Assembly (NCBI RefSeq): GCF_947495625.1
Contig: NZ_CANLZW010000003.1
Span: 62,001-126,000, forward strand
From: an uncultured Cocleimonas sp.
GTDB taxonomy: Bacteria > Pseudomonadota > Gammaproteobacteria > Thiotrichales > Thiotrichaceae
Direction of reading: 5' to 3'
DNA length: 64,000 nucleotides
Positions 50,310 through 54,005 of this stretch are shown here, in pieces. The notes under the pieces are model-generated. The model was not told the origin of the DNA, searched no databases, and saw nothing but the letters and a program-made list of their open reading frames with translations. The position numbers and the translations under genes were made by a program. Position 1 is the first letter of the stretch; each line of letters starts with the position of its first letter.

Positions 50310-52160
50310 TTACTTTTCAACTTGAGACACATCTCTAACCGCACCTTTTGCTGCAGATGTTGCCATAGCTGCGTAGGCTCTTAATGCTGGAGTGACATTT
50401 CTCGGACGAGGCCCAGCTTTCCAGCCTGCGCTACCTTTGGCATCCATTGCATCACGGCGCTGTTGCAGCTCATCATCAGAAATTCTAAGCGAAATTTTAC
50501 GGTTCGGAATGTCGATATCTATGGTATCGCCTTCTTCGACTAGTCCAATCGCTCCGCCTTCTGCTGCTTCTGGTGAAGCGTGTCCGATCGATAAACCCGA
50601 TGTGCCGCCAGAGAAACGACCGTCGGTGATTAATGCACAAGCTTTGCCAAGACCTTTTGATTTCAAGTAACTGGTCGGATACAGCATTTCCTGCATGCCC
50701 GGTCCACCTTTTGGTCCTTCATAAAGAATAACAACGATATCGCCTTCGACGATCTCATCAGCAAGGATTGCGGTTACTGCATCATCTTGAGATTCATAAA
50801 CACGTGCGCGCCCTTCAAAGGTCAAGATATGTTCATCAACGCCCGCTGTCTTTACGATACAGCCATCTTCTGCGATATTTCCGTAAAGTACTGCTAAACC
50901 ACCGTCTTTAGAGTAAGCGTGTTCAACATCACGAATACAGCCGCCGACTTTATCAATGTCTAGATCATCCCAGCGTTTGCTTTGACTAAAGGCATGCACG
51001 GTACGTACATTTCCCGGAGCCGCTTTATAGAAAGTTTGTACTTCTTCAGATGGGTTACGTGCGATATCCCACTTTTCCAGTGCTTCGCCCATTGTGCGCG
51101 CGTGAACGGTGTTACATTCTGTATGAAGCATACCGCCTCGTTCTAGCTCGCCCAGAATTCTGAAAACGCCACCAGCGCGATGTACATCTTCCATGTGGTA
51201 TAGCTGAGTTGCAGGTGCTACTTTGCTCAAATTAGGCACTGAGCGAGACAAACGATCCATATCGTCCATGGTGAAATCGACTTTAGCTTCATGAGCTGCT
51301 GCAAGTAAATGCAGAACAGTATTGGTCGAACCACCCATGGTGATATCGAGACTCATCGCGTTTTCGAAGGCTTTGAAGTTAGCAATGTTACGTGGTAATG
51401 CAGTCTCGTCGTCTTCTTCATACCAACGTTTAGTCAGAACCATAATCTGACGAGCCGCTTCTAAGAATAACTGCTCACGATCAGAGTGTGTTGCCAGCAT
51501 CGAACCATTGCCTGGCAACGATAAACCTAAAGCTTCTGTCAAACAGTTCATTGAGTTTGCAGTAAACATGCCTGAACACGAACCACAGGTAGGACAGGCT
51601 GAAACTTCCGTCTTAAACACATCTTCATCTGAGACTTTATCATCAGCGGCGGAAACCATGGCATCAACCAGATCAAGTTTTACCACCTGATCTTGAATAA
51701 CCGCTTTGCCCGATTCCATCGGTCCACCAGATACAAAGATCACTGGAATGTTCAAGCGTAAGGCAGCGTTTAACATGCCCGGTGTGATTTTGTCGCAGTT
51801 AGAAATACAGACTAAAGCATCCGCACAATGCGCGTTCACCATGTATTCCACAGAATCAGAGATAATTTCGCGTGATGGCAAACTATAAAGCATGCCATCG
51901 TGACCCATTGCTATACCGTCATCAACAGCAATGGTATTGAATTCTTTTGCGACACCGCCCGCTTTTTCTATTTCGCGTGCTACAAGCTGACCCATGTCTT
52001 TCAGGTGGACATGACCTGGCACAAACTGCGTGAATGAATTTGAAATAGCGATGATTGGCTTACTGAAATCGTCATCTTTCATACCAGTAGCGCGCCATAG
52101 GGCTCTGGCTCCAGCCATATTACGGCCGTGGGTGGATGTGCGTGAACGATACTCTGGCAT
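50310..52160 (-). CDS. ilvD: dihydroxy-acid dehydratase
   Basis: Iron-sulfur enzyme (616 residues) that dehydrates dihydroxy acids in branched-chain amino acid synthesis. Cluster cysteines are in [19 protein letters not shown] and [19 protein letters not shown]. The substrate-side block is [20 protein letters not shown]. It stands alone, away from ilvE and any ilvBN or ilvC. The leader contains a G-rich element but no evident leader peptide or riboswitch. Confidence 0.97.
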
Positions 52161-52232
52161 GGGGATTCTTCTCTATTATAAATGGTAGAAGGCTATTTTA
52201 ACGCTGAATCAGGGTCTTTGGAAATACTCTTT

Positions 52233-52261
52233 AAAAAAGCGGTTAAAAGTAGGGGGGTGAC
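52233..52261 (+). repeat. G-rich intergenic element, copy 9
   Basis: A6 GCGGTT then AAAAGTAGGGGGGTGAC. Lies upstream of ilvD (minus strand) and upstream of the small gene at 52382. The spacer departs from the GCC form and cannot form the CCT/AGG hairpin, which argues against a folded-RNA role. Confidence 0.92.
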
Positions 52262-52381
52262 CTTTAAATTATTAACGGATCTTTTGTGAAAGTGTGATGA
52301 ACTTCACGGAATTAACAGTGAGAATCCAATATATTATTCATACAGCAATAGTCACAGTCATAAAAGACAAAGGAGCTAATC

Positions 52382-52474
52382 ATGAAACTTACAATCTTAC
52401 CCATATTGATCATTAGCCTAATGCTTGCGGCGACAATTATTATATCCGCAGAAGTGTTGATGTCTCCTTTCTAG
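52382..52474 (+). CDS. 30-residue hydrophobic microprotein
   Basis: ATG to TAG gives MKLTILPILIISLMLAATII followed by ISAEVLMSPF. One continuous hydrophobic segment covers residues 4-22, so a single-pass membrane protein or a small secreted leader is likely. Support for translation is AAAGGAG ending six bases before the ATG. A weak promoter-like pair (TTAACA near 52311 and TATTCA 17 bp later) lies upstream. It sits alone between two direct copies of the G-rich element. I recognise no family; confidence rests on the ribosome binding site and composition. Confidence 0.6.
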   Translation: MKLTILPILIISLMLAATIIISAEVLMSPF

Positions 52475-52507
52475 CAGGCTTTGAAGCATCTCTTTGAGAA
52501 TGCTTTT

Positions 52508-52536
52508 AAAAAAGTGCTCCAAAGTAGGGGGGTGAC
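52508..52536 (+). repeat. G-rich intergenic element, copy 10
   Basis: A6 GTGCTCC then AAAGTAGGGGGGTGAC. Lies between the microprotein gene and the patatin gene. It is 275 bp from copy 9 in the same orientation, the shortest interval in the window. Confidence 0.93.
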
Positions 52537-52553
52537 CTTAAATATTGAATGCC

Positions 52554-54005
52554 TTACTTTAGCCCGTTAATAAATGCTTGAAAGCTCTTTGAGCGTTGCA
52601 TTAATTTCATGCCAGCATCTTCCAGTTGATCTACGGTTTTATTCGGTAGCTCGAGGGCAGTGGGAACGATTCCTAATTCTTTAAGTTCCGAGGGTCTCAG
52701 GTCTTCAAGATTAATTTCAATCAATTGAAACTCTATATTTGCGCAGTCTTTACTGGGCTTTTCTCGACAGCGTGATGTTTGTACTTGTTTTTTCCAGACA
52801 GGGAATTTGCTCGTTAATAAGTCAATAGTCTCCGTGTTGTACTTATTGGATTGGATTGTGGTGGTGGTATCAATCACATCAACCGTTGAAGGCGCTCGCT
52901 TTCGGGTGGCAATAATGGGGTTTTGAAAACTGGCGGCATTAACGCTGATAAAAACCATCTTTTTGGTGTCCTGCATGCCGTAGGTTTTCATCGCACTCCA
53001 CATGCTGTCGTTATGAAACGAAATGATATCCAGAATAGAGCGTATGCCCAGATTATCAGCGACTCCACCATCGACTAAATGCAGGTATTTTAACTTTTTA
53101 TTATCGCGGTAGTTTTTAACTCTAAGGGCATCTTTATAACGCTTTTGCTTATTTTTTACTTTGTTTCTATTGCGTTTTTGAACATCCCAAACGATAGGTG
53201 AAAACTTGCAACTGCCCGCGTGATTCTCCAGAGTGATAGGAGAGAAAACAACAGGCACGGCAGAAGAGGCAGCAACGGCACGAGATATCGGATAGCTATT
53301 TAAATCTGAGCAAATCCAGCTGAAATGATAGCCAGTAAAAGAAAAGCCTTGTCCCAATGACAAGTCTGTCGCATTGATAACGATAAATGGAGCATCGGGG
53401 CGCATATCGCCAAAATGTTTCTTTTTGAAAATAGTCTGGTGATAATATTCTGCGGCTAGATCGCTGCGTTCAAACAGCGCTGGCGCTAATCGAATCCAGG
53501 ATTTTGGGCTAAATAAAGAAAGGTTGAGTAATTCTGTCTGGATTTTTCTCTTAAGCACTTTCTTCTCAAAATCTTTGAAAATGCCATCGCCAAATAAACC
53601 ATAATACGCTGAGGTGAAACTTCCGCCAGATACCGATGAAATCATGTCGACTTCATCCAGTAAGCGTCGTTGTTTATTGCCGATATTGACGTTGGTGTCA
53701 CGTAATTTTTTTAGAACGCCGTATGACAGTGCCGCAGAACGGGTTCCACCACCTGAAAATGCCATAAATAAAGAAAGCTCGTCAGATCGTTGATTTTTTG
53801 GTGCTGAGCCTAATGCTGCTAATTCTGAGCTAGATTTAGCCTTCAGGGGCTCGTTCATTTTAGGGGAAGTAACGCTACAAGCACTAAGAAATAACCCGCT
53901 AAAAATTATGCATAGTGGCTTAGCTGTGAATATTTTTCTTATGCGGCTTAGTGTTGTTATTTGTGACATAGTGGTTAAAGTAGTCTCTTGTAAATCTTTT
54001 AGCAT
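52554..54005 (-). CDS. patatin-like phospholipase lipoprotein
   Basis: 483 residues. A lipoprotein signal ends at LFLSACSVTSP. The patatin core has the oxyanion loop FMAFSGGGTRSAALSYGVL, the nucleophile elbow ISSVSGGSFTSAYYG (Ser in SVSGG, the form common in this subgroup), and the catalytic Asp in HLVDGGVADNLG. Predicted acyl hydrolase on membrane lipids. The ATG at 53969 is an alternative start that keeps the signal peptide; neither start has a strong ribosome binding site. Confidence 0.9.
   Translation of the reverse strand: MLKDLQETTLTTMSQITTLSRIRKIFTAKPLCIIFSGLFLSACSVTSPKMNEPLKAKSSSELAALGSAPKNQRSDELSLFMAFSGGGTRSAALSYGVLKKLRDTNVNIGNKQRRLLDEVDMISSVSGGSFTSAYYGLFGDGIFKDFEKKVLKRKIQTELLNLSLFSPKSWIRLAPALFERSDLAAEYYHQTIFKKKHFGDMRPDAPFIVINATDLSLGQGFSFTGYHFSWICSDLNSYPISRAVAASSAVPVVFSPITLENHAGSCKFSPIVWDVQKRNRNKVKNKQKRYKDALRVKNYRDNKKLKYLHLVDGGVADNLGIRSILDIISFHNDSMWSAMKTYGMQDTKKMVFISVNAASFQNPIIATRKRAPSTVDVIDTTTTIQSNKYNTETIDLLTSKFPVWKKQVQTSRCREKPSKDCANIEFQLIEINLEDLRPSELKELGIVPTALELPNKTVDQLEDAGMKLMQRSKSFQAFINGLK

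Follow-up and report, generated by a model that had tools for sequence, protein, structure and literature searches.

The small membrane proteins of Escherichia coli have about 30 residues and one hydrophobic helix, and they are made from monocistronic genes with a ribosome site of their own. Other bacterial one-helix microproteins act by packing against larger membrane proteins, and genes of this size are usually skipped by annotation pipelines. The known polarity signals of chromosomes are short octamers scattered through genes. A published definition of architecture-imparting sequences (AIMS), including KOPS, asks for at least 70% of copies on the leading strand and for a bias and abundance that rise toward the terminus (PMC5993296). 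REP/REPIN elements of the GTAG type, described together with their RAYT (Y1) transposases, have palindromic units with GTAG at one end, form hundreds of intergenic copies, some of them inverted pairs with long hairpins, and occur in species-specific variants (PMC3733652, PMC3116915).

Here we describe an interval of an uncultured Cocleimonas sp. in which a 30-codon frame, hereafter the microgene, stands between two direct copies of a G-rich repeat. The stretch of 64,000 nucleotides that was analyzed is called the window, and the genome to which it belongs (4.60 Mb, 89 contigs) the study genome. A preliminary description of the window had reported, between ilvD and a patatin gene, a 30-codon frame with AAGGAG six bases from its ATG and one hydrophobic segment, flanked by two direct G-rich copies 275 bp apart, the tightest spacing in the window. 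All of these features are present as described (Table 1).

Table 1. Features of the interval between ilvD and the patatin gene, and copies of the repeat in the window. Positions are counted within the window; gene calls are simple open-frame calls.
Feature	Position	Strand	Basis or remark
ilvD, divergent neighbor	50310..52160	-	NCBIfam NF009103
G-rich polar repeat, upstream copy	52230..52267	+	same place in C. flava, variant in G011
CRP-type box TGTGA-N6-TCACG, center 52300.5	52293..52308	+	
Predicted -10 element TATATT, 21 nt 3' of CRP-type box	52330..52335	+	
Ribosome-binding site AAGGAG, 6 nt 5' of microgene ATG	52370..52375	+	
Microgene, 30 codons, MKLTILPILIISLMLAATIIISAEVLMSPF	52382..52474	+	ATG at 52382, stop codon end at 52474; frame, orthologs, synonymous bias, AlphaFold2 helix
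Possible stem-loop AAGCATCTC-TTT-GAG-AATGCTT(TT), 3' of microgene stop, weak terminator candidate	52483..52507	+	stem in both MFE and centroid fold
G-rich polar repeat, downstream copy, between convergent microgene and patatin gene	52505..52542	+	matching position in C. flava; no copy in G011
Patatin-like phospholipase, convergent neighbor	52554..54005	-	PF01734
Repeat copies in the window (examples)	1485, 6554, 17065 (minus), 29204, 41924, 47828, 52248, 52523, 56139, 57685		

Results

Conservation of the 30-codon frame

The start of the microgene reads AAGGAG-CTAATC-ATG, and the best 19-residue Kyte-Doolittle mean of its single hydrophobic segment is 2.75. AlphaFold2, given three ortholog sequences, returned one helix over residues 5-27 with a mean pLDDT of 89. 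The microprotein is predicted to be a single membrane helix.

Orthologs were found in C. flava (90% identity) and in the MAG G011 (60% identity). In all three genomes the microgene adjoins ilvD in divergent orientation; it faces the patatin-like gene in the study genome and C. flava, and an unrelated gene in G011. Start, ribosome site and 30-codon length are common to the three species, the region of the ribosome site being retained as GACAAAGGAG in C. flava and as ACAAGGAG in G011, and the invariant residues of the protein include MKL, IS, MLAATII and SA. Within this ortholog set, which consists of three genomes only, the study genome and C. flava are separated by 6 changes at 21 synonymous sites and 3 at 69 non-synonymous sites (dN/dS about 0.13, Fisher p = 0.004), and comparison with G011 gave a dN of 0.29 and a dS of 0.88 (dN/dS about 0.33, Fisher p = 0.036). 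Conservation of the frame in relatives with a synonymous bias, which the preliminary description had named as a check, was thus found in both species. Because position and reading frame are conserved and the changes show this bias, the 30-residue frame is, on comparative evidence, a genuine and selected gene.

Outside these three genomes the microprotein was not found in 63 genomes of the order, and among 57 relatives reaching other families of the class it was again confined to the same three. The sole further match in the searches of relatives was at chance level (E = 0.47). Comparison with Pfam and NCBIfam returned no family above the cut-off. On contig C2 of the study genome, near 179.7 kb (G000:C2; L076:19698), a further intergenic frame, MSLRAKIIGVFDLMITIIVTPLLLSLF, likewise has a ribosome site and encodes a hydrophobic segment.

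Promoter motif and CRP-like protein

The CRP-type box upstream of the microgene reads TGTGATGAATTTCACG in C. flava, and its G011 version is TGTGATGTATTTCACG. While the sequence between box and -10 hexamer has diverged, the box itself and the spacing of 21 nt are kept in all three species; the hexamer is TATATT in C. flava as well and TAATCT, a weak match, in G011. Transcription is predicted to start near 52342, at the usual distance from the -10 element, which would put the center of the box at -41.5, that is, in the class II position. Relative to this predicted start, the sequences of all three species have a box near -41.5 together with a -10 element.

Counted in either orientation, the core TGTGA-N6-TCAC is rare, with 30 occurrences in 2.04 Mb against 16 expected from base composition, and it is enriched between genes (10 of the 30 are intergenic, whereas intergenic DNA makes up 13% of the total; p = 0.003). 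The study genome, C. flava and G011 each encode a CRP/FNR-family protein in which SREMISR aligns to SRETVGR of E. coli CRP. CRP is the best match of this protein in the PDB (E = 5.8e-25) and CRPs are its closest solved relatives; since its score of 114.7 lies below the NCBIfam CRP cut-off of 266, naming it CRP would be premature. Judging from motif and protein sequence, an activator of the CRP/FNR family probably regulates the microgene. No paper linking CRP to small membrane proteins turned up in a search of the literature.

A strict terminator scan at the microgene found none, which leaves the possible stem-loop behind the stop codon uncertain as a terminator. The peptide is rich in Ile and Leu and an ilv leader peptide was considered; this was rejected, since ilvD is divergent and no gene lies downstream on the microgene strand before the convergent patatin gene.

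Alternative readings of the microgene

The unit might instead produce a regulatory RNA under CRP control, like Spot 42 of E. coli, with the frame being incidental or a secondary product of a dual-function transcript. Such an RNA would suit the monocistronic organization, the length of about 165 nt, the CRP-type box and the possible stem-loop at the 3' end. However, differences between the orthologs pile up at codon positions 3 and 1 and nearly spare position 2 (2/1/6 at positions 1/2/3 between the study genome and C. flava, 12/1/15 between the study genome and G011), and start, ribosome site and length of the frame are retained throughout. The fold is moreover no better than that of shuffled sequences (z = 0.40), and there is no meaningful Rfam match. 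We consider this reading unlikely.

A type I toxin-like hydrophobic peptide, restrained by an antisense RNA, also seems improbable to us. Length, hydrophobicity and narrow distribution of the microprotein are consistent with it, and a minus-strand promoter-like match (GAGACA-16-TATAAT, 52466 down to 52439) lies within the microgene and faces its start, but matches of this kind are expected 1.5 times by chance in the stretch examined. The gene is present as a single copy and has no family match in NCBIfam, Pfam or Rfam, and the CRP-type activator site would be atypical, such sites being, to our knowledge, not typical of type I toxins. The preliminary description had offered a small regulatory membrane protein or a toxin-like peptide; the conserved frame, the purifying selection and the conserved promoter motif argue for a membrane protein, and the toxin-like role is not supported and keeps a low probability.

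Quite improbable, finally, is a signal-peptide-like precursor that would be cut after ISA/VSA to give the heptapeptide EVLMSPF, EALMSPF or NILVSSF. The short MK n-region, the hydrophobic core, the conserved S-A at 22-23 and the more variable tail behind it have the order of such a precursor, but the tail is hydrophobic as well as variable and the AlphaFold2 helix runs through the putative cleavage site.

Distribution at the ilvD locus

The ilvD locus was seen in nine genus members, namely the study genome, C. flava, G011, G004, G007, G001, G005, G010 and G002. In the ilvD tree the study genome groups with C. flava, followed by G011 and G004, and the other five stand apart. The microgene was not found next to ilvD in G004, G007, G001 and G005, where absence from a MAG can be an assembly gap, nor in G002, where the flank covers only 106 bp. 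G010 has the patatin gene directly after ilvD and no microgene in the gap. The ilvD and patatin genes of G004 are about 1 kb apart, with a different frame in the intervening DNA and an apparent degraded repeat at the usual place. The simplest history would be that the common ancestor of the four-species clade gained the microgene and that G004 lost it.

The short gap between ilvD and patatin in G010 (L098:1350-1440) contains an inverted pair of the repeat variant of that species, AAAAAGAGGGGGGGTGGGCTA, which forms a long hairpin. This hairpin occupies the place where the study genome and C. flava have the microgene and single copies of the repeat.

Number, form and conservation of the G-rich repeat

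With up to two mismatches, the 17-nt core of the repeat occurs 587 times in the study genome and 393 times in C. flava (G003), and the window holds ten copies with at most three mismatches, where 0.08 would be expected by chance. In the study species the consensus of aligned copies is A5-N2-GCCT-N-AAGTAGGGGGGTG, with a weak ACTTT behind it. Of the copies with at most one mismatch in a 12-nt core, about 87% lie outside frames, where only 13% of the DNA is found. Single copies are not palindromic beyond the 5-bp AAAGT/ACTTT, and inverted pairs that give long hairpins are a minority (16 in C. flava and 6 in the study genome, in the sampled stretches). Comparison with Rfam returned nothing of value, and those papers on the genus Cocleimonas that were consulted do not mention the repeat in title or abstract.

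Figures for conservation and polarity come from sampled 20-kb stretches; one of these, L024 (G003:C1:335001-355000), reads entirely N and was excluded from all counts. Among 43 copies of the study genome with an aligned counterpart in C. flava, about 40 retain the element (read by eye). Core and A-tract are 92-93% identical between the two species. In the flanks the identity is roughly 79-84%, and at the two variable positions, -3 and +12, it drops to 51-53%. As far as sequence comparison goes, this pattern has the look of selection on a fixed site and not of mobility.

Other species have other versions, AAAAAGGTGGGGGGTGTACTTTT in G007, AAAAAGTGGGGGGTGTCATTT in G011, AAAAACAGGGGGGATGGGT in G002 and the variant of G010 given above. 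G002, G004, G007, G010 and G011 each have their own version, as if the whole set had been rewritten between species. The little sequence that was read of G001 and G005 revealed no clear form of the repeat.

Orientation of the repeat along the chromosome

In C. flava, dnaA lies on contig C1 near 970 kb, where the GC skew changes sign, and the single dif match lies on C2 at 116.9 kb (G003:C2:116878-116903). Single copies are distributed 248:73 between leading and lagging strand (77%, p = 2e-23) when contigs C3 and C4 are assigned to replication arms by skew, and C1 and C2 alone, which are anchored by dnaA and dif, give 152:55. Copies less than 300 kb from dnaA have a leading share of 55%, those further along C1 71% and those less than 300 kb from dif 85% (p = 0.001). 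Over the same three zones of the sampled stretches, the density per 100 kb runs 10.4, 12.1 and 16.1 on the leading strand and 8.6, 5.0 and 2.9 on the lagging strand. The bias is the same whether the flanking genes are leading (64:22) or lagging (54:18), and it is also seen in gaps between convergent genes (52:12) and between divergent genes (37:3). Orientation of the repeat follows replication and is independent of gene direction.

The study genome also has a single dif match (G000:C4:21978-22003). Five of the six copies to the left of it (C4:136-12534) are on the plus strand, and the sixth belongs to an inverted pair as its minus-strand member. Single copies in this part are thus directed toward dif, as they are in C. 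flava.

Several explanations of the repeat were rejected. As part of a terminator or promoter it would not be expected to run 77 times with and 64 times against gene direction in co-directional gaps. Plain G-richness is insufficient as a cause of the leading bias, other G5 runs reaching 62% (196:119) against 77%. The element is not KOPS, as it lacks GGGNAGGG; this canonical KOPS is separately present, 29:3 on the leading strand. An altered FtsK was rejected as its reader as well, since 12 genomes of the genus share an identical FtsK gamma recognition region and the repeat varies among them.

The two flanking copies

The 38-nt copies around the microgene are 87% identical, with a 17-nt core identical in both, and form the closest direct pair in the window. 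C. flava has the pair in the same places with a spacing of 276 bp. Direct pairs less than 600 bp apart number ten in 2.08 Mb sampled, and two of these are the flanking pair in the two species.

The preliminary description had supposed that the repeats might have let the segment between them move or be lost. Two direct copies of such identity, and the absence of the interval beside ilvD in other genus members, are consistent with a mobile or deletable cassette, but we reject this reading as very improbable because C. flava has both copies in the corresponding positions, the microgene of G011 has no downstream copy, and about 590 copies of the position-stable family occur across the genome. With 15 of the 16 copies in the window pointing in the same direction, a gene flanked by a direct pair is to be expected. 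Although relatives lacking the microgene do exist (G010, G007), their ilvD-adjacent DNA is not the scar of recombination between the repeats; no examined genome combines ilvD, one copy of the flanking repeat and patatin with the interval cleanly missing, and the gap of G010 holds the inverted pair instead. Where an abundant polar repeat flanks a gene in direct orientation, its copies should, as this case warns, not be taken for cassette ends.

Discussion

On balance we favor the view that the interval is a self-contained, lineage-specific unit with CRP-type control, which encodes a one-helix inner-membrane microprotein and to which the flanking repeats are unrelated. The unit would run from the CRP-type box through the -10 element and the ribosome site to the 30-codon gene. 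An activator of the CRP/FNR family with a CRP-like recognition helix most likely activates the microgene from the class II position, and the microprotein most likely packs against a larger membrane protein. We infer that the microgene is expressed and that its product inserts into the membrane, and any partner or function is proposed on the same footing. Both flanking G-rich copies belong to an intergenic repeat that is found across the genome, is stable in position and is mostly directed from oriC toward dif, so that neighboring copies are usually direct. The microprotein lends itself to clean tests, as the product of a young membrane microgene that is under selection and has a predicted regulated promoter of its own; by itself it is a further member of the known class of single-helix microproteins.

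The repeat matters more than the microprotein. We put forward only tentatively that it is a new chromosome-polarity signal of about 30 bp, intergenic and held at fixed places by selection, which mostly points along the oriC-to-dif direction and has changed in concert from species to species, an idea that we rate as possible but doubtful. If it were true, a dedicated, co-evolving DNA-binding protein other than FtsK would read the repeat. With a signal that is long, intergenic, position-stable and species-variable, it would become possible to find the reader protein and to follow how it co-evolves with its sites.

With the small membrane proteins of E. coli the microgene shares length, single hydrophobic helix, monocistronic organization and own ribosome site, here combined with probable CRP/FNR-type control from a CRP-type box at class II spacing. 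In contrast to them, its product is without a Pfam or NCBIfam relative and is confined to one Cocleimonas clade.

The repeat shares with GTAG REP/REPIN elements the hundreds of intergenic copies, the GTAG in its main variant, some inverted pairs with long hairpins and the species-specific variants (PMC3733652, PMC3116915). Unlike them, it has single copies that are not palindromic, a strong orientation bias with respect to replication and positions conserved between species; only a minority of its copies form inverted pairs. Five of the six genomes rich in the repeat form are without a Y1 transposase: the REP-type family PF01797 has no match in C. flava, G004, G007, G008 and G011, and of the four matches in the study genome the best is interrupted by TAA. 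REP/RAYT mobility was rejected as a present mechanism because PF01797 is absent from these five genomes.

Compared with AIMS and KOPS (PMC5993296), the repeat is likewise leading-biased, its 77% standing against the 70% of the definition, and both its bias and its leading-strand density increase away from the origin and toward the terminus in the sampled stretches. It differs from AIMS octamers in its length of about 30 nt with A-tract and G-tract, in its largely intergenic placement and in the inclusion of inverted pairs, and it varies from species to species within a single genus in which the FtsK gamma domain hardly changes. The repeat therefore resembles a long AIMS, unusual in being about 30 bp in length, intergenic and species-variable, for which a function in chromosome polarity may be proposed.
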